Of a stretch of DNA of 64,000 bases, positions 22,258 to 32,292 are shown one piece after another. Within the stretch, counting starts at the first letter, position 1. Every line of letters begins with the position of its first letter. Made by a program: the position numbers and the translations under genes. The notes beneath the pieces were generated by a model. The model was not told the DNA's origin and did no database searches. It worked only from the letters and a program-made list of their open reading frames with translations. The stretch spans positions 1-64,000 of the forward strand of contig JAUQQO010000018.1 in NCBI GenBank assembly GCA_030549795.1, written 5' to 3'. The stretch is from Pseudomonadota bacterium (GTDB taxonomy: Bacteria > Pseudomonadota > Alphaproteobacteria > Geminicoccales > Geminicoccaceae).

Positions 22258-22998
22258 GTGGACGGCTTGCGAGCGAGTCGGAGATTCTACGCCACCGACC
22301 TTTCGCCCTGTCCGTACCGGACGGGGCGACTCGAGCGTCGGCTGGTCACCCTGCTCGAACCGAACGGCGAAGCCGACGCGCTCGATCGTTTGACGATCGC
22401 CGGCTTTCGCCGCAGCCGACGCTTCCTCTACCGCCCCGTCTGCCCCGACTGCCGCGCCTGCGTGCCGGTTCGCATCGTGGTCGATGACTTCGTTCCGTCG
22501 CGAACCTTCAGAAAAGTTCTGAAGCGGAACCGGGACTTGAGCGTGCAGGAATGTCCACCGCGCGCGACCCGCGAACAGTATGCGCTCTTCCGCCGCTACG
22601 TGACCCATCGTCACGGCGATGGCCGCATGGCCGAGATGCGATGGCGCGACTATGTGGAAATGATCGAGGAGAGCACGAGCCTCACCCGCTTGCTCGAGGT
22701 TCGCGACCGCGACGGCAGCTTGATCGGTGCAAGCCTCACGGATTACGTCGCGAGCGGTCTTTCCGGCGTCTACAAATTTTTCGAGCCGACGACACCGGAG
22801 CGATCGCTCGGCACGTTCATCATCCTCTGGCACGTCCAGCGCGCGCGCGAGCTGGGTCTTCCCTACGTCTATCTCGGTTATTGGATCGCCGACTGTCGCA
22901 AGATGGCCTACAAGCGCCGGTTTATGCCGCTGGAGGCGCTCGAGGGCGGTATGTGGGTCCGCGTTCCTGAAGTTCCGGACGAAGCTCGCGAGATCTAG
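22258..22998 (+). CDS. bpt: Aspartate/glutamate leucyltransferase / arginyltransferase (Bpt/Ate family, N-end rule)
   Basis: FYATDLSPCPYRTGRLERRLVTLLE...RRSRRFLYRPVCPDCRACVPVRIVVDDF...SLGTFIILWHVQRARELGLPYVYLGYWIADCRKMAYKRRF. Confidence 0.9.
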   Translation: MDGLRASRRFYATDLSPCPYRTGRLERRLVTLLEPNGEADALDRLTIAGFRRSRRFLYRPVCPDCRACVPVRIVVDDFVPSRTFRKVLKRNRDLSVQECPPRATREQYALFRRYVTHRHGDGRMAEMRWRDYVEMIEESTSLTRLLEVRDRDGSLIGASLTDYVASGLSGVYKFFEPTTPERSLGTFIILWHVQRARELGLPYVYLGYWIADCRKMAYKRRFMPLEALEGGMWVRVPEVPDEAREI

Positions 22999-23085: not shown

Positions 23086-23424
23086 ATGGACCAACCCCAG
23101 TTCCACGAAGGCCTGCTCCTGCGCACGCGCGACGACACGCTCTTCTTCGTTCCGCTGATCGACCTTCTCGCCCGCTACCGTCTGCCCGACGACCAACAGC
23201 GCGGCACCCCGACGGGTGACGCGGTCCTCGAGATCCTGGATCGCAGCGCACCCCTTCGCGGCATTAAGAACGCCTTCTTAGGGGATCGAATGGTGATCCT
23301 CGAACCGGATCCCACCTCCCCGAGCGGCGGTAAACAGCGCTTCGCCGTCGAGCTCCTTACAGCCGCAGAGCCCGAGGTGCCGAGCGGCGGCAAGCAACGC
23401 TTCGCTGCCGAACCGGGCGATTGA
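23086..23424 (+). CDS. Candidate RiPP precursor peptide with two C-terminal PSGGKQRFA repeats
   Basis: 112 aa from ATG 23086 with upstream GGAAG: MDQPQFHEGLLLRTRDDTLFFVPLIDLLARYRLPDDQQ...DRMVILEPDPTSPSGGKQRFAVELLTAAEPEVPSGGKQRFAAEPGD; directly upstream of YcaO and TfuA genes. Alternative GTG start 23023. Confidence 0.75.
   Translation: MDQPQFHEGLLLRTRDDTLFFVPLIDLLARYRLPDDQQRGTPTGDAVLEILDRSAPLRGIKNAFLGDRMVILEPDPTSPSGGKQRFAVELLTAAEPEVPSGGKQRFAAEPGD
23320..23412 (+). repeat. Two protein-level direct repeats PSGGKQRFA(V/A)E at exact 60-nt spacing inside the candidate precursor
   Basis: Copy 1 ccgagcggcggtaaacagcgcttcgccgtcgag (23320-23352); copy 2 ccgagcggcggcaagcaacgcttcgctgccgaa (23380-23412). 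Confidence 0.97.
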
Positions 23425-23470
23425 CGCACCAACGCCCGCACGCACCGCCAATCCCGCGCGCGCCAACACC

Positions 23471-24676
23471 TTGCCCTGGCTTCCCAACGGGCCGCTGTTG
23501 CCCTCTGGCTCGGCCGAGGCGCTCTGGCGCTGTCTGCGCCCGCGCCTTGGCCTTTTCGGCATCACTCGCGTCGCCGACATCACCGGCCTCGACCATTTGG
23601 GAATACCCGTAGCGGTAGCCGTAAGGCCCAACGCCCGCGCGCTCTCGGTAAGCCAGGGCAAGGGCCTGGCTAAGGCGCAGGCCTTCGTAGGCGCGGCGCT
23701 GGAGAGCATCGAAACCTGGCACGCTGAAGTACCGGCGCTTGCGACGATCACCGCGACCCCACGTCGGGCTGCGGGCGATCCGAGCTTTCTTAAGCTCTCT
23801 CGCCTCACGCTGCATCGCGGCAGCCGTTTGCGGCCCGAGCTCGCGATCCCTTGGTTTCCCGCTCGCGACCTCATCTCCGGACGGGAGCTCTGGGTGCCGG
23901 CCGAACTGGTCGAGCTCGATTCGACCCGCTTGGACCAAGAAGGCCGGGGGTGCTTTCCGTTGAGCTCAACCGGGCTCGCAAGCGGCCGCACGCCCGCTGA
24001 GGCCACCCTGCACGCCCTTTTCGAGCTCATCGAGCGCGACGGCCTGACGCTCTTCCGCTTCCGCGATCCCCCCGAAAAAGCCAAGCGCCGCATCGATCTC
24101 GCGCGCGTGCGCGACCCTGTGGCGCGCGCTCTGCTCGATCGATTGGATGAAGCCGGCATGTTGGTCGGCGCCTGGGACGCGACGAGCGATCTCGGTGTTC
24201 CGACCATCTTCTGTCACCTCATGCCCGAGCGCCCGCGCGGCCACGACGGGCCCGGCTGGGAACTGGGGAGCGCCGCCCGCGCCTGTCCTGTCGCTGCTCT
24301 TTGTGCCGCTTTGCTCGAGGCGGTGCAGGCAAGGCTCACCCAGATCGCCGGCGTCCGCGACGACATCGGCCGCCAACGCTACGAGCCGCCGCCCGCTTTT
24401 CGCCTCGAGTACCAGCGCGCGCTTTTGAAAGCGCGCGGAGGGTACGAGCTGCCGCCACCCGCCTGGTCGCCCGCCCTTCCGGCTGAGACCCAGATCGAGC
24501 TCTTGCTCGCGCGTTTTGCTCGGCACGGTCTCGATCAGGTCGCCTTGGTCGATCTCGCACGCCCCGAGATCGGCATTCCCGTCGTCAAGGCTGTCGTTCC
24601 GGGCCTCGAGGACGGTCTCGATATGATCGGGTGGCGGCCCGGTCCGCGCGCGCGTGCCCTTGGAGCACGCCTATGA
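23471..24676 (+). CDS. YcaO-domain protein (TfuA-associated type)
   Basis: RVADITGLDHLGIPVAVAVRPNARALSVSQGKGLAKAQAFVGAALESIETWHAE...GLASGRTPAEATLHALFELIERDGL...ACPVAALCAALLEAVQARLTQIAGVRDD; TTG start assumed, true start uncertain. Confidence 0.93.
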   Translation: MPWLPNGPLLPSGSAEALWRCLRPRLGLFGITRVADITGLDHLGIPVAVAVRPNARALSVSQGKGLAKAQAFVGAALESIETWHAEVPALATITATPRRAAGDPSFLKLSRLTLHRGSRLRPELAIPWFPARDLISGRELWVPAELVELDSTRLDQEGRGCFPLSSTGLASGRTPAEATLHALFELIERDGLTLFRFRDPPEKAKRRIDLARVRDPVARALLDRLDEAGMLVGAWDATSDLGVPTIFCHLMPERPRGHDGPGWELGSAARACPVAALCAALLEAVQARLTQIAGVRDDIGRQRYEPPPAFRLEYQRALLKARGGYELPPPAWSPALPAETQIELLLARFARHGLDQVALVDLARPEIGIPVVKAVVPGLEDGLDMIGWRPGPRARALGARL

Positions 24677-26586
24677 GCATCGTCCTGTTCGTCGGCCCGA
24701 GCTTTCCCGCCCTCCATCGCCTTGCGCTTCCCGGCATCACCGTCCGACCACCAGCCGCTCAAGGCGATCTCTTGCGCGCTGTGGGCGACGGCGCGCGCGC
24801 GATCGGTCTCATCGACGGCGTCTTCGGCCACGAGCCCGCGGTTTGGCACAAGGAAATCCTCTTCGCGCTCGAGCGCGGTGTGCGGGTGCTGGGCGCCGCG
24901 AGCATGGGGGCACTGCGCGCAGCCGAGCTCTACCGGTTCGGAATGGAGGGCGTGGGCACCATCTTCGCTGCCTACCGCGACGGTCTTCTCGACGCCGACG
25001 ACGAAGTCGCCCTCGTTCACGGGCCGGCCGAGCTCGGCTGGCCGGCCTTGAGCGAGCCCATGGTCAATCTGCGCGCGACGCTCGCCCGACTCGAGCGGCG
25101 CGGCCTGCTCTCGCGCGCCGAGGCCGCGCAGGTGGCCGAGGCGCTCGCTACCCGCTTTTACCCCGAGCGCACGCGCGCGACTTTCGAATCCGTGCTGGCT
25201 GCCGTCGTCGGCGGCACGCGCGCCTCATCCCTGATCGAGTGGTCGCGCCGGCTGTTCGTCGATGCCAAGCGCATCGATGCCGCGCGCCTGCTCAAGCGCC
25301 TGCGAACCTCCCCGACCGCGCAAAGCCGGGTGGCTGCGCGGCGGATTGCGGTCCAACGCAGCGCTCCGTTGCGGGCCTTGTTGCGCGAACTCGATGCCAC
25401 GTCCCGCACGATCGCGCACAAGCCGCCGTCTTTGCCGGCGCTCAGGCCAGAATTGCCGCGCGCGTTGAGGCCGTGGGCGGTCTTCGGCTTGTTCGCCGCC
25501 GACAACGATCTCGCCCGCGCGCTCATCGAGGACCTCGAAGAGCTCCAAAACGCGCAGCTTCTAAACCGACTTCATGTGGTCGGCGAGATCGATTCACCCG
25601 ATTGCAGGCTTCGGGGCCGATTCTTTCTCCTTCCGGCGGATCCCTCAAAGGGGAGCCGCAAGCCTCGCCTGGTGATCGAAGGCGCTGGGCCGCGTAACAC
25701 CGGAGATCCACAACTGCTCGTCGAGTTTCTCAGTTGGGCCCTGCCGCGCTTTCCGGCCTGCCGGCGCGCCCTCTTGCTGTGGGGGCACGGTGCGGGGCTC
25801 AACTTGGCGATCGATGAGGGAGCGCGCGATGCGCTCTCGATTCCCGAGCTCCTTGAGGCGCTCGCGGCCGGGCTCGCGGCGCACGCGCCTATCGATCTCG
25901 TGATCTTCGATGCCTGTCTTATGGGCATGCTCGAGCTCGTGGGCGATCTCGCTCCGTTTGCGCACCATCTCGTTGCCTCGAGCGAAGTGGTGCCGGCCTG
26001 CGGCCTGCCGTACCATCGCGTGCTCGAGGCCTTCGCGCACCGCTCTTCACCCCGAGATGTCGGCTGCGCTCTGATCGAGGCGTTCATCGCGGAGATGGCG
26101 GTGCGCGGTGAGCGCCATGCCCGCATGCTTTTGGCCCGAACCGACCGCGCGGCACCCGCCCTCGAAGCCCTAAGCCTGGTGGGAAGGCGTTTAAAAGACT
26201 TGTTGCCGCGGGAACGCGACGCCGTCTTGGCGGCACGTCTGCTCGCCCGTGCGCCGCGAGCTCACGATCTGGTCGACGCCGGTGATCTGCTCGCGCGGCT
26301 TGCGCGGATGATCCCCGACGCGCAGCTCGGGGAGCTCGTCGGCAGGGCGCAGGAAGCGATCGCCGAGTGCGTTCTCGAAGTCCGTGCCGTGGAGCCCACC
26401 GCCTCGGTTTTGCCGAACGGGCTCACCTTGTGGTTCCCCGCCCAAGTCGGAACCTTTCGACTTTCCCGAAGCGAGTACGCGGTCCGGCCGTCGATCCGCG
26501 GACCGGGAGCCGGATGGCTCGCGTTTCTCGACGCCCTGCACGGCTGTGATCGCCATCAACGCACGAGCCTAGCCGCAATGGCATAA
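24673..26586 (+). CDS. TfuA domain - C11 peptidase (clostripain/caspase-like) fusion
   Basis: N-term: MSIVLFVGPSFPALHRLALPGITVRPPAAQGDLLRAVGDGARAIGLIDGVFGHEPAVWHKEILFALERGVRVLGAASMGALRAAEL...DEVALVHGPAELGWPALSEPMVNLRATL (TfuA). C-term (~25464 onward): LRPWAVFGLFAADNDL...RALLLWGHGAGLN...IDLVIFDACLMGMLELVGDLAPFAHHLVASSEVVPACGLPYH (C11; His372, Cys415). Confidence 0.9.
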   Translation: MSIVLFVGPSFPALHRLALPGITVRPPAAQGDLLRAVGDGARAIGLIDGVFGHEPAVWHKEILFALERGVRVLGAASMGALRAAELYRFGMEGVGTIFAAYRDGLLDADDEVALVHGPAELGWPALSEPMVNLRATLARLERRGLLSRAEAAQVAEALATRFYPERTRATFESVLAAVVGGTRASSLIEWSRRLFVDAKRIDAARLLKRLRTSPTAQSRVAARRIAVQRSAPLRALLRELDATSRTIAHKPPSLPALRPELPRALRPWAVFGLFAADNDLARALIEDLEELQNAQLLNRLHVVGEIDSPDCRLRGRFFLLPADPSKGSRKPRLVIEGAGPRNTGDPQLLVEFLSWALPRFPACRRALLLWGHGAGLNLAIDEGARDALSIPELLEALAAGLAAHAPIDLVIFDACLMGMLELVGDLAPFAHHLVASSEVVPACGLPYHRVLEAFAHRSSPRDVGCALIEAFIAEMAVRGERHARMLLARTDRAAPALEALSLVGRRLKDLLPRERDAVLAARLLARAPRAHDLVDAGDLLARLARMIPDAQLGELVGRAQEAIAECVLEVRAVEPTASVLPNGLTLWFPAQVGTFRLSRSEYAVRPSIRGPGAGWLAFLDALHGCDRHQRTSLAAMA

Positions 26587-26622
26587 AAACGTGCCTCCCA
26601 AAAGAACCCCCAATCCCCCTCG

Positions 26623-26650
26623 AAGGCCGGGTCGTCCCGGCCTTTCTCTT
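26623..26650 (+). terminator. Rho-independent terminator after the TfuA-C11 gene
   Basis: AAGGCCGGG-TCGT-CCCGGCCTT stem-loop followed by TCTCTT. Confidence 0.8.
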
Positions 26651-26741
26651 TGTGGCGAGCGCACACCCACAAGCCGTCTGCCCGGATGCCTTCCCCAATG
26701 CGGACGTGATAAGGGCTCAAGCGCGAGCGGGGAGTGCATCG

Positions 26742-28286
26742 ATGAACGCAGCCGAAAGCGTGGTCCGCACCGCCGAAGCGGCCGGGGTGGAGGTCTGCTT
26801 TGCCAATCCCGGCACGACGGAGATGCCTCTCGTCCTCGCCCTCGACCGTACGACCCGGATCCGCACCGTCTTGGGCCTGCACGAGGCGATCTGTACGGGT
26901 GCCGCCGATGGCTACGGCCGGGTCAAGGGCACACCGGCGCTCACCCTGCTCCACCTCGGGCCCGGACTCGCCAATGGTCTTGCCAATCTGCACAACGCCC
27001 GCCGCGCCCGCACCCCCTGCGTCAATCTCATAGGCGAGCACGCGACGTGGCACCGCGATGCCGATGCGCCGCTCAGCATGGACATCGAGGCGCTCGCCCG
27101 CACGGTCGCGCGCTGGACGGCCCGCGCGGTCCACGCGCGCGAGGCGGCTCGGCTTACCGCCCAAGCGATCGCGCAGGCATGCGCCGGCCGTGGCGGCATC
27201 AGCACCCTCGTGCTCCCGCACGATCTCTTATGCGAGGAGGTGGGCGATGCGATCGCGACGGTTCCGCCACCCGAGCCGCCGCTGCCGCCCGATCCGGGTG
27301 CGGTGGCAGCAGCCGCCGAGCTGTTGCGTGGTGCTGCACCCAGTGCGCTCTTCCTCGGTGGCCCTGCGCTGTGGGGCGAAGGTCTGCGTTTGGCCGGGCG
27401 GATCGCGCGCGCCACCGGTGCCACCCTCATCTGCGAGACCGGCTTTGCGCGCTTGGCCACCGGCGCAGGCCGGCCGCCGGTGCACCGTCTTCCCTATTTC
27501 CCCGAGCAGGCACAAGCGCTGCTCGACCGTTTCGGCCACATCATCGGTTGCGGCGCGAAGCGGCCGGTCTCGTTCTTCGGCTGGCCCGGCAAGCCCTCCC
27601 GCTATCTCGAAGATCGCGAGGGCGTGGTCTGGCTGGCAGGTGAAAACGAAGACGCGGTCGGCGCGCTGCGCGAGCTAGCCGACATGTTGGGCGCCCACGA
27701 GGACCATCCGGGCAGCGACTACGATCCACCCGCTCTGCCGAGCGGGTCGCTCGACGGCGCCAAGCTCGCCGCTGTGCTCGTCCACCACCTGCCCGAACAG
27801 GCGATCGTGGTGCCGACTGCGGTTACCAACGCGTTTCCTTTCTCGGCGATCGCCGAGCGGGCGCGCCCGCACGAGCAACTCGCGCTCACCGGCGGCGCGA
27901 TCGGTGAGGGGCCGGCGCTTGCGATCGGAGCGGCACTCGCCGCGCCGGACCGAAAGGTCGTCAATCTCGAGGCCGACGGCAGCGGAGCCTACGCGCTCCA
28001 GGCCCTTTGGACGCAGGCGCGCGAACGGCTCGATATCGTGACGATCGTCTGTGCCAACCGCGCCTACCGCATTCTGCAGCTCGAGCTCGAACGCCAGGGG
28101 CTGAGCGGCGGAAGCGCAACCCGCGCCCTAACGAGCCTCGAGGATCCGCCGATCGACTGGGTGACCGTCGCCCGCGGCCTCGGTGTGCCGGGCGTGCGGG
28201 TCGAGGACGCCGAAGGCTTAGGGCGCGCGCTCACCCGTGCCTTCGCCGAGCCTGGGCCGTTTCTCATCGAAGCCCGGCTCCCTTGA
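26742..28286 (+). CDS. Thiamine pyrophosphate-dependent enzyme (acetolactate synthase large subunit-like)
   Basis: MNAAESVVRTAEAAGVEVCFANPGTTEMPLVLALDRT...GLHEAICTGAADGYGRVKGTPALTLLHLGPGLANGLANLHNARRARTPCVNLIGEHATWH...EADGSGAYALQALWTQARERLDIVTIV. Confidence 0.9.
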   Translation: MNAAESVVRTAEAAGVEVCFANPGTTEMPLVLALDRTTRIRTVLGLHEAICTGAADGYGRVKGTPALTLLHLGPGLANGLANLHNARRARTPCVNLIGEHATWHRDADAPLSMDIEALARTVARWTARAVHAREAARLTAQAIAQACAGRGGISTLVLPHDLLCEEVGDAIATVPPPEPPLPPDPGAVAAAAELLRGAAPSALFLGGPALWGEGLRLAGRIARATGATLICETGFARLATGAGRPPVHRLPYFPEQAQALLDRFGHIIGCGAKRPVSFFGWPGKPSRYLEDREGVVWLAGENEDAVGALRELADMLGAHEDHPGSDYDPPALPSGSLDGAKLAAVLVHHLPEQAIVVPTAVTNAFPFSAIAERARPHEQLALTGGAIGEGPALAIGAALAAPDRKVVNLEADGSGAYALQALWTQARERLDIVTIVCANRAYRILQLELERQGLSGGSATRALTSLEDPPIDWVTVARGLGVPGVRVEDAEGLGRALTRAFAEPGPFLIEARLP

Positions 28287-28429: not shown

Positions 28430-29389
28430 TCAGGCGCTCGGGGCAAGGCAGCGCAGAAGATCGGCCGCGAGGTTGCTCAACAGACTGCGGTAGGCGTCGG
28501 GGCCGGGGTGCAGCGGCGGCGCTCCGACCGGATCGAGCGTGCCCGCCCGTGCTCCGGTGCCTTCCGCGACGCTTTGGACGAGGGGCGAAGGGAACTGAGG
28601 CTCGGCGAAAACGCACACCGCACCCCGCTCTCGGATCGTCTTGCGCAACTGCGCAAGGCGCTTCGCCGAGGGCGGTCGTTCGGGTGACACGGTAATCGAG
28701 CCCGCGGCACCGAGGCCGTAGCGCTTCTCGAAATATTGGTAGGCGTCGTGGAACACCACGAAGGGCTTGTCCTTGACCGAAGCGAGCTTGTGCGCGAGCT
28801 CGCGATCCAGAGCCTCGATTCGCGCGATTTCTTCTTGCGCATTCGCCCGGTAGCGGTCGGCGCGCGAGGGATCGCGTTCGGCAAGCGCTTCCGCTAAAGC
28901 GCGCAGGATCACGATTCCGTTGGTGGGGTCGAGCCAGAGATGGCCGTCGATCGCCTGCGCGTGAGCGTGCTTGCTGTCGCGGCCGTGGTGGTGGCCGTGC
29001 GCGTGGTCATGTTCGTCCCACACACCACCTTTGCGGACCGAATATAAGGTCACCCCTGGAAGCTTGGCCGCTTCGACGATCCGCGCCTTGCGGGCCAGGT
29101 TGCGAAGCGGCTTATCGAGAAAGGTTTCGAGTGCGTCTCCCACCCAGACGATGATGTCCGCCCCTTCGAGCCGTTTGGCGTCGGAAGGGCGGAGCTGGAA
29201 GCCGTGCGGCGAGCTTCCCGGGGGCACGAGCAGGCTTGGTTCGCCGACCTCGCGCATCACCGCAGCGGCAAGGGCGTGCAGTGGTACGATCGAGGCTACC
29301 ACTTGCGGCGGTTCGGCCGCGCGGGCGGTAGCCAGCGCAAGGAGCAGGGCAGGGAGCGCGAGCGACAGGTGACACAGGGCGCGCCGCAT
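28430..29389 (-). CDS. znuA: Zinc ABC transporter substrate-binding protein
   Basis: Signal peptide; SIVPLHALAAAVMREVGEPSLLVPPGSSPHGFQLRPSDAKRLEGADIIVWVG; His-rich loop DEHDHAHGHHHGRDSKHAHAQ; HLWLDPTN. Confidence 0.95.
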   Translation of the reverse strand: MRRALCHLSLALPALLLALATARAAEPPQVVASIVPLHALAAAVMREVGEPSLLVPPGSSPHGFQLRPSDAKRLEGADIIVWVGDALETFLDKPLRNLARKARIVEAAKLPGVTLYSVRKGGVWDEHDHAHGHHHGRDSKHAHAQAIDGHLWLDPTNGIVILRALAEALAERDPSRADRYRANAQEEIARIEALDRELAHKLASVKDKPFVVFHDAYQYFEKRYGLGAAGSITVSPERPPSAKRLAQLRKTIRERGAVCVFAEPQFPSPLVQSVAEGTGARAGTLDPVGAPPLHPGPDAYRSLLSNLAADLLRCLAPSA

Positions 29390-29416
29390 GGCAGGGTACT
29401 CCGCGAGCCGTCGCAA

Positions 29417-29431
29417 CGTTATAGGATAACG
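29417..29431. promoter_or_regulatory. Putative Zur operator between divergent znuA and znuC
   Basis: Perfect inverted repeat CGTTAT-AGG-ATAACG in the znuA/znuCB intergenic region; zur is encoded downstream. Confidence 0.75.
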
Positions 29432-29433
29432 CC

Positions 29434-30222
29434 ATGTTGGCGCAAGCCATCTCCCGCGCGCCGGTCGCAGCCGAGGCCCCACCTCGGGTTCTGGTCGAGC
29501 TCGCCAAAGTCTCGGTCGAGCGCGAGGGAAAGCCCATTCTCGAAGAGGTCGATCTGGTCGTTCGCGAAGGCGAGTTGGTAACGCTCATCGGTCCCAACGG
29601 CGCTGGCAAGACCACGCTCGTCAAAGTCGCTCTCGGTCTTGTACCGCCGACTTCTGGTAAGGTGGCGATACAGCCTGGCATTCGTATCGGCTATGCTCCC
29701 CAACACCTGCCGATCGAGCGAACAATTCCGATCGACGCGTTGGGGTTCCTCGCACTCGCCGGGAAGCGTCCGCGCGAAGACTTGCTCGGCGTGCTCGCCG
29801 AGGTCGGCCTTAAGGGCAGCGAGGATCGGCAACTCCAGGCGCTCTCGGGAGGTGAGCTGCGCCGTCTTCTCCTGGCCCGGGCGTTGTTGCGACGTCCCGA
29901 GCTCCTCGTGCTCGATGAACCCTTAAGCGGGGTCGATCTCAACGGGCAGTTCGAACTCTACGAACTGATCGCCGCGATCCGGTCGCGATACCGCTGCGCC
30001 GTGCTGCTCGTGAGCCATGATCTGCACATCGTGATGGCGGCCACCGACCGGGTCGTGTGCTTGGACCGATGCGTGCGCTGCACCGGCTCTCCCGAAGCCG
30101 TCGCCCGCGATCCGCGCTTTGCGGGGCTGTTCGGCGACCGCTTCGGTCGCCTTGTGGCGCTTTACGCGCATCGCCACCGCGTAGCGGAGAAGCCAGCGGC
30201 GCCGGTGAGGACCGAGCCGTGA
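29434..30222 (+). CDS. znuC: Zinc ABC transporter ATP-binding protein
   Basis: Walker A IGPNGAGKTTLVKVALGL, signature LSGGELRRLLLARALL, Walker B LLVLDEPLSGVD. Confidence 0.95.
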   Translation: MLAQAISRAPVAAEAPPRVLVELAKVSVEREGKPILEEVDLVVREGELVTLIGPNGAGKTTLVKVALGLVPPTSGKVAIQPGIRIGYAPQHLPIERTIPIDALGFLALAGKRPREDLLGVLAEVGLKGSEDRQLQALSGGELRRLLLARALLRRPELLVLDEPLSGVDLNGQFELYELIAAIRSRYRCAVLLVSHDLHIVMAATDRVVCLDRCVRCTGSPEAVARDPRFAGLFGDRFGRLVALYAHRHRVAEKPAAPVRTEP

Positions 30223-31016
30223 TCGAAGGCTTCCTTCTGCGCGCCTTTCTCGCCGGTCTCGGCGTTGCGTTGCTTGCCGGGCCGCTCGGCGCGTTCGTGG
30301 TGTGGCGACGGCTCGCCATCTTCGGCGAGGCGCTCGCCCATTCCGCCCTTTTGGGGGTGATCCTCGCTCTTCTCCTCGAGCTCGATCCGACCATCGGCCT
30401 TGTTGTGTTCGCCGGCTTGCTCGTCACTGTGCTTTGGGTGCTCGAAGAACAACGTCTGTTGCCCACCGATACGATCTTGAGCACGCTCGCGCACGGCGCC
30501 CTCGCCCTCGGTCTCGTTCTTTTGAGTCTCTTCGATTGGATTCGGCTCGACCTCATGGGCTATCTCTTTGGAGATATCCTTGCGGTGAGCACTCGTGATC
30601 TTTTCTTGCTTGCGGTATTGGTGGCGATTTCAGCTGTCGTGCTCTTCAAAAATTGGTGCGCGCTTGTGTCGATGACGATCGAGCCCGATCTCGCGCGCGT
30701 CGAAGGCGTACCGGTGCGCGCGCTGCGCTTGCTCTTGGACCTGTTGATCGCCGGTGCGATCGCTCTCGGCATGAAACTCGTGGGCCTTCTTCTTATCGTC
30801 TCGCTTCTGGTCGTACCTGCTGCAGCTGCCCGTCCTTGGACCAAGACGCCCGAACAAATGGCGCTTATGGCCTCCGCTTTGGCCGGCTTGGCGACGATCG
30901 TGGGCCTTTCGCTCTCGATCGCTGCCGACGTTCCTTCCGGTCCAGCGATCGTGGTGACGGCGGTTGCGCTCTTCGCCTTCTCCCACGGCGCCGAACGCGC
31001 GCGAAAGCGGCGCTGA
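30219..31016 (+). CDS. znuB: Zinc ABC transporter permease
   Basis: Multi-TM ABC-3 family: LAGPLGAFVVWRRLAIFGEALAHSALLGV...LFGDILAVSTRDL; overlaps znuC stop (GTGA). Confidence 0.94.
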   Translation: MIEGFLLRAFLAGLGVALLAGPLGAFVVWRRLAIFGEALAHSALLGVILALLLELDPTIGLVVFAGLLVTVLWVLEEQRLLPTDTILSTLAHGALALGLVLLSLFDWIRLDLMGYLFGDILAVSTRDLFLLAVLVAISAVVLFKNWCALVSMTIEPDLARVEGVPVRALRLLLDLLIAGAIALGMKLVGLLLIVSLLVVPAAAARPWTKTPEQMALMASALAGLATIVGLSLSIAADVPSGPAIVVTAVALFAFSHGAERARKRR

Positions 31017-31083
31017 GCCGAGCCTGGGCTGGCCGCCAGCAACGGTGCCTGCTAATTTGCCTGCACGAAGTTGGAGCCGGCTT

Positions 31084-31593
31084 TTGACGCGCGAGCTCGA
31101 AGACCCGTTTCCGGCTGCCGACCACGACCACGCGCAATGCGTCGCTGACGCCCTTGATCGTGCAGCCGCCGTATGCGCCGCCCGAGGCGTCAAGCTCACC
31201 CGCCTAAGGCGCCGAGTGCTCGAGATCGTGCTCGACCAGCATGCGCCCATAGGCGCTTATGCGATCCTCGAGCGCCTCGCGCGCGAGCGCGGCCGCGTCG
31301 CACCTCCCACCGTTTACCGCGCGCTCGATTTCCTCGTCGCCCAGGGGCTCGTGCATCGGCTCGATACCAAGAACGCCTTCGTCGCCTGCGCCCGCGCCGA
31401 CGGACCGCATCCCGCCTGTTTTCTCATCTGCCGCGAATGCGGTGCGGTCGCCGAGGTCGCCGATCCCGAACTCGATGCCGCGATCGCCGCGGTCTCGAGG
31501 CGTACCGGTTTTGCGGTCGCACGGCGCATCGTCGAGCTCGAAGGCACTTGCGCCCGTTGCGCAGCCGCCCATGCGGCGCAGGAGGCGGCGTGA
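31084..31593 (+). CDS. zur: Fur-family transcriptional repressor, Zur
   Basis: LTRLRRRVLEIVLDQHAPIGAYAILERLARERGRVAPPTVYRALDFLVAQGLVHRLDTKNAFVAC...HPACFLICRECGAVAEV...CARC; adjacent to znuCB. TTG start assumed. Confidence 0.92.
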   Translation: MTRELEDPFPAADHDHAQCVADALDRAAAVCAARGVKLTRLRRRVLEIVLDQHAPIGAYAILERLARERGRVAPPTVYRALDFLVAQGLVHRLDTKNAFVACARADGPHPACFLICRECGAVAEVADPELDAAIAAVSRRTGFAVARRIVELEGTCARCAAAHAAQEAA

Positions 31594-31719
31594 GCCCGAA
31601 GGCCGCGCCGGATGGTTGCGGTACCGCGCGATCACGGCAAGCGGCCGGCTCGGCCTTTTCGCCCACAGCCATCGAGCCCGCAACCCGCGTGCGGTCCCAC
31701 TACGGCTAGGCTCGCTTCC

Positions 31720-32292
31720 ATGACCGCGCGGCGGATCGTCGTCGGCATCAGCGGAGCCTCGGGAGTGGTGTTGGGCGTCCGCCTGCTCGAGCTTCTACGC
31801 GAGCTCGACGTCGAAACCCATCTCGTGATGACCCGCGCGGCCATGCTCACGATCGCCCATGAGCTCGATCGCTCGCTTGAGAGCGTGAAGGCGATGGCCT
31901 CGGTGGTCTATCCGATCAACGACGTCGGGGCGGCGATCGCCTCGGGCTCGTTCAAGACCGAGGGGATGATCGTCGCTCCCTGTTCGATGCGGACCTTGGC
32001 GGCGATCGCCAGCGGAGTGACAGACACGCTTTTAAGCCGCGCTGCCGATGTCGTCCTCAAGGAACGGCGCCGGCTCGTGTTGTTGCCGCGCGAGACGCCG
32101 CTGCATCTCGGGCACCTGCGCAACATGGTCGCGGTCACCGAGATGGGGGCGATCGTCATGCCGCCGGTGCCCGCCTTTTATGCCGGCGTCGCCTCGCTCG
32201 AAGCGATGATCGACCAAATCCTCGGCCGCGCGCTCGATCTCTTCGGTCTTGAGTGTCCGCGCGTGGTGCGCTGGCGCGGCGGGCGGCCGTAG
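31720..32292 (+). CDS. ubiX: Flavin prenyltransferase UbiX
   Basis: RRIVVGISGASGVVLGVRLLELL...SGSFKTEGMIVAPCSMRTLAAIASGVTDTLLSRAADVVLKERRRLVLLPRETPLHLGHLRNM. Confidence 0.96.
   Translation: MTARRIVVGISGASGVVLGVRLLELLRELDVETHLVMTRAAMLTIAHELDRSLESVKAMASVVYPINDVGAAIASGSFKTEGMIVAPCSMRTLAAIASGVTDTLLSRAADVVLKERRRLVLLPRETPLHLGHLRNMVAVTEMGAIVMPPVPAFYAGVASLEAMIDQILGRALDLFGLECPRVVRWRGGRP

Follow-up and report, generated by a model that had tools for sequence, protein, structure and literature searches.

A Repeat-Bearing Precursor, a YcaO Enzyme and a TfuA–C11 Protease Fusion in a Candidate Multi-Core RiPP Locus of Geminicoccaceae

Introduction

Thioamidated RiPPs are already known, and the best-studied repeat-bearing relatives of the system described here, the thiovarsolins, are encoded by a protease-free cluster. 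In these peptides, whose short core is repeated, a thioamide precedes Arg, and endogenous peptidases are presumed to act (PMC6511847). TfuA is an accepted marker of thioamidation (PMC8120280), and the sulfur route described for such YcaO enzymes involves a thiocarboxylated ThiS-type carrier and TfuA (PMC13063428). Among the C11 peptidases, Asp177 of PmC11 is the main specificity residue, and the enzyme prefers a basic P1 residue (PMC4850288). Lanthipeptide clusters were noted in one 2026 paper to contain a gene for a C11 peptidase, and a 2023 review on RiPP leader proteases named no C11 enzyme. A fusion of TfuA with a protease is apparently unreported. In a search of mainly open-access literature, TfuA and clostripain were not named together in any paper, so an earlier description is possible. 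The DNA analysed here is a stretch of 64,000 nucleotides (the window), whose relatives are Geminicoccaceae of the Alphaproteobacteria.

Results and Discussion

Organization of the Locus

The locus was composed of three co-directional genes (Table 1), namely, a precursor gene (gene 1), a YcaO gene (gene 2) and a TfuA–C11 protease fusion gene (gene 3). All three open reading frames were found where the original prediction had placed them. The precursor gene ran from an ATG at 23086 to a TGA at 23422-23424. The predicted gap of 46 nt between genes 1 and 2 was reproduced when TTG 23471, the first common start codon, was taken as the YcaO start; it rests on this assumed start, and an in-frame ATT at 23420 is an alternative. 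The 4-nt overlap of genes 2 and 3 was exact (ATGA). The operon was also said to be closed by an intrinsic terminator. A GC-rich stem of 10 pairs with a T-rich tail was indeed present, but the region was not enriched in such elements (two found vs 4.3 expected in shuffles); hence, a terminator of the operon is no more than plausible. No transporter lay in the operon, as predicted, and an Rfam search gave no match within it. The genome had one YcaO gene.

Table 1. Positions of the operon features and of the gene upstream within the window
Feature	Coordinates	Strand	Remarks
Arginyl-tRNA-protein transferase (context)	22258..22998	+	87 nt upstream of operon
Precursor protein	23086..23424	+	112 aa; leader ~residues 1-75, repeat tail ~76-112
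Repeat 1, PSGGKQRFA	23320..23346	+	residues 79-87
Repeat 2, PSGGKQRFA	23380..23406	+	residues 99-107; 20 residues after repeat 1
YcaO enzyme	23471..24676	+	TTG start assumed; PF02624 3e-65
TfuA–C11 protease fusion	24673..26586	+	637 aa; PF07812 + PF03415; Foldseek to TfuA 6xp8 + C11 peptidases
TfuA domain	24679..25305	+	NF033432 1e-53, residues 2-210; 6xp8
C11 (clostripain-family) domain	25459..26550	+	aligned with solved C11 peptidases
Terminator-like stem-loop, T-rich tail	26622..26645	+	not above shuffle expectation

Synteny around the operon was common to the members of the genus, and only two genes, some kilobases downstream, were shared with the Geminicoccus locus. The arginyltransferase was considered as a pathway member and rejected; it adjoined the operon in this genus only, and searches of the Geminicoccus loci did not recover it. 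The operon was immediately followed by a TPP-dependent acetolactate-synthase-like gene (26652-28286) and then by zinc uptake genes (ZnuA, ABC ATPase and ABC-3 permease) and a FUR-family regulator (28430-32286). Both the FUR gene and the flavoprotein gene that comes next were also present near the Geminicoccus locus.

Precursor Gene and Repeat Motif

A lack of homologous loci that retain the small ORF and its motif would have refuted the original prediction. The outcome favoured the prediction: the ORF and its GGK..F repeats, together with YcaO and the TfuA–C11 fusion, were found in 9/9 genomes of two genera. In whole-genome searches, every genome of the window's genus (six) and of the Geminicoccus-type genus (three) contained the precursor, which was absent from a further 23 genomes of the order that all belonged to one family. 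A precursor-profile scan of named species genomes (GTDB) gave seven loci, five of which were metagenome-assembled (four titled Geminicoccaceae and one uncultured Alphaproteobacteria), with Geminicoccus harenae and G. flavidas as the remaining two. The dN/dS of the window gene against its genus was about 0.14-0.30, indicating that the ORF is under purifying selection at the protein level; judged by this and by its conservation, gene 1 is a real gene.

The two repeat copies in the window had identical peptides and differed at four synonymous bases. The 22 repeat units in nine species fitted [D/E]P..P.[G/A]GK[Q/D][R/K]F, with single units deviating at some positions; the Lys, the Gly before it and the Phe were invariant. 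This conservation in nine species argues against a chance repeat. The spacing was 20 residues in the window's genus and 19 in Geminicoccus, and two members of the genus carried two units per precursor, the other four carrying three. Two further matches of the motif elsewhere in the genome were at the same level as a reversed-pattern control and were discarded.

The first ~75 residues of the precursor formed a conserved leader domain. The gene 1 product had no match in Pfam, NCBIfam or PHROGs, so the leader family appears unclassified in these libraries. Its structure model was of low confidence (mean pLDDT 53), and a fold search with the model gave no significant match; hence, leader recognition is hypothetical. 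Two small ORFs in other loci were also observed. The first, at L040:3095-3427 (-) in another Geminicoccaceae genome (MAKVTGLLIRTADGATYFI...), lay beside a YcaO gene, was weakly leader-like (E 4e-4) and adjoined an ORF resembling a subtilisin-type protease. The second, at L116:10722-10946 (-) upstream of a YcaO gene (MTKKYEHGITIKWGAELYYVPMEAW...), had a similar LYYVP motif, which may be a leader element common to YcaO/TfuA loci.

Distribution and Origin of the Fusion

The TfuA–C11 fusion was found in the same nine genomes as the precursor. The match was full-length in 5/6 genomes of the genus and 3/3 Geminicoccus-type genomes; in the sixth genus genome, it lay close to the end of a contig and began at residue 296. 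Two samples that overlapped, one of 387 Alphaproteobacteria genomes and one of 399 Pseudomonadota genomes, were also searched. In these, TfuA itself was scattered, no full-length TfuA–C11 was found outside the window's genus, and the leader profile matched only this genus; such searches score few candidates per genome, so an absence in them is no proof. The Geminicoccus fusions are known from the search of relatives, not from these samples. Moreover, no C11 gene was found near TfuA in 26 wider TfuA neighbourhoods. In the TfuA tree, the eight fusion domains formed one clade (96/94) and the Skermanella TfuA branched elsewhere. Hence, judging from this phylogeny, the fusion probably arose once.

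Proposed Pathway

The locus fairly probably encodes a multi-core RiPP pathway that combines YcaO/TfuA thioamidation with repeat cutting by a tethered C11 domain. The RiPP part of this reading is supported by the co-occurrence of precursor and fusion together with purifying selection on the precursor, and by the 22 units with their invariant G/K/F, regular spacing and copy number of two or three in close relatives. Gene order, domain content, conservation, the motif, the catalytic residues and, in this genus, the restriction of Lys/Arg to the motif are observations, from which we infer the chemistry, the residue modified, the cleavage site, the order of steps and the fate of the product as follows. 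The leader domain would guide YcaO and TfuA to the gene 1 tail, which would comprise two core units (three in four relatives), each with G-K-x-[R/K]-F. YcaO would use ATP, with the sulfur donor supplied through TfuA, and would probably introduce a backbone thioamide either at the invariant Gly that precedes Lys or directly beside it. The TfuA-tethered C11 domain would then cut after the motif Lys or Arg, releasing short peptides.

On a plasmid of Skermanella sp. TT6, a leader relative, YcaO and TfuA lie together with a C11 gene that is separate from, and adjacent to, TfuA, which argues for the proposed pathway. The lack of GGK repeats in that relative and the Lys/Arg outside the motif in the Geminicoccus precursor tails argue against it. 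That the locus represents a distinct class of thioamidated RiPP, with the protease tethered to TfuA so that one enzyme complex carries out sulfur insertion and core release, guided by a leader family absent from the searched libraries, is a tentative proposal. If the pathway is as proposed, modification and cleavage would be contained in three genes, which would make reconstitution easy and provide a defined Lys/Arg cutting step. A new leader/core family would be available for study, and a C11 protease would be tied to YcaO chemistry.

The C11 Protease Domain

The C11 half of the fusion (Pfam Peptidase_C11 PF03415, 6e-25) resembled clostripain and the C11 peptidases of Bacteroides/Parabacteroides by sequence and predicted fold (matches 9cip, 6mzo, 6n9j and 3uws). 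The His/Cys catalytic dyad and the S1 Asp that define a C11 peptidase were all present. With residues counted from 24676, these were H371 (codon 25786-25788), C414 (25915-25917) and D412 (25909-25911), the Asp sitting two residues before the catalytic Cys and being equivalent to Asp177 of PmC11, and they were invariant in eight fusions. Furthermore, all Lys/Arg after residue 70 fell inside the motif in 6/6 precursors of the genus. This confinement of Lys/Arg gives indirect support to cleavage after Lys/Arg and, with the invariant residues, suggests that the C11 domain cuts the repeats.

The domain could also cut the fusion itself, since C11 enzymes are often self-processing. The fusion model was of moderate confidence (mean pLDDT 75) and contained a disordered, low-confidence linker between the domains (residues ~214-261), within which self-cleavage is possible. 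This linker, the autoprocessing of C11 enzymes at Lys/Arg and the lack of an own protease in the thiovarsolin cluster are consistent with a C11 domain that is no maturation protease. It would instead free or activate TfuA by self-cleavage, or degrade unmodified precursor, and release of the product would be left to cellular peptidases, a route proposed for thiovarsolins. We consider this explanation unlikely, though deserving of some weight. The catalytic residues are kept in both genera, Lys/Arg are restricted to the motif in this genus, and a separate C11 gene is retained beside TfuA in Skermanella, all of which favour the cutting of repeats.

A stand-alone C11 protein encoded elsewhere in the genome (L057:7936-9570 (-), contig C44 of G000; no adjacent YcaO) was rejected as a partner. 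Its ~180-aa N-terminal region was different, and no precursor-like ORF lay beside it. Relatives of this protein were present in other genomes of the genus.

YcaO and TfuA

The best curated match of YcaO was TIGR03266 (McrA-glycine thioamidation YcaO, 1e-50, below the equivalog cut-off), and its closest solved structure was MJ1094 (PDB 6pe3). The TfuA domain (PF07812, 2e-45) had NF033432 as its best curated match, also below the equivalog cut-off, and was closest in structure to the Methanosarcina TfuA 6xp8. Among the flanking genes examined, none was recognised as an E1-like cyclodehydratase partner. Thioamidation is therefore the favoured chemistry. The features by which thioamidated RiPPs of the YcaO–TfuA type are assigned, a conserved leader and core precursor adjoining YcaO and adjacent YcaO and TfuA genes, were found here.

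YcaO enzymes also form azolines and amidines. An amidine-containing product has been reported (PMC8442711), and a RiPP pathway in which YcaO makes an azoline or amidine, with TfuA as a mere activator, may be envisaged. We judge it improbable because TfuA marks thioamidation (PMC8120280), the thioglycine type is the one nearest to this YcaO, and no Cys/Ser/Thr is invariant in the repeat unit. An azol(in)e RiPP (TOMM) is assigned by Cys/Ser/Thr in the core and an E1-like/ocin-ThiF partner. Here, the repeat lacked an invariant Cys/Ser/Thr, the flanking genes examined included no such partner, and the match to the SagD model was below cut-off. Very improbable is a cellular protein target such as McrA or uL16, with gene 1 accessory or regulatory: the resemblance to the McrA pair would fit it, as would retention across the genus in a syntenic setting, which recalls a housekeeping trait, but a repeated motif of variable copy number lies directly upstream of YcaO, gene 1 accompanies YcaO and TfuA–C11 in all nine genomes, and a leader relative occurs on the Skermanella plasmid.

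Comparison With Known Systems

The thiovarsolin cluster (varA/varY/varT) is alike in its repeat precursor with YcaO and TfuA genes and in the basic residue that follows the thioamide in the core (Ala-Pro-Arg; PMC6511847). It differs in having no specific protease, whereas the protease here is fused to TfuA, and in its additional heme oxygenase-like, ATP-grasp, amidinotransferase and MFS transporter genes. Moreover, the core here was GGK[QD][RK]F, not the APR/GPR repeat core of thiovarsolins. The parallel between the two systems is suggestive only. The YcaO/TfuA pair for McrA thioglycine belongs to the closest curated families (both matched below cut-off), and glycine is a plausible target in the present system. 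However, the McrA pair acts on an archaeal metabolic enzyme and has neither a precursor peptide nor a protease.

Clostripain and PmC11 share the His/Cys dyad and S1 Asp with the fusion, but none of the solved members is joined to TfuA, whereas the C11 domain here follows an N-terminal TfuA domain. In the fused TfuA-YcaO genes of Burkholderia thailandensis (PMC8120280), TfuA is likewise joined to another pathway enzyme, the partner being YcaO instead of a protease. On the Skermanella plasmid pTT6-1, a gene whose 258-aa product contains two leader-like domains precedes YcaO, TfuA and C11, so that the gene order matches that seen here. In contrast to the present locus, TfuA and C11 are encoded by two genes that overlap, the duplicated leader domain is without GGK repeats, and the plasmid TfuA falls outside the fusion clade.
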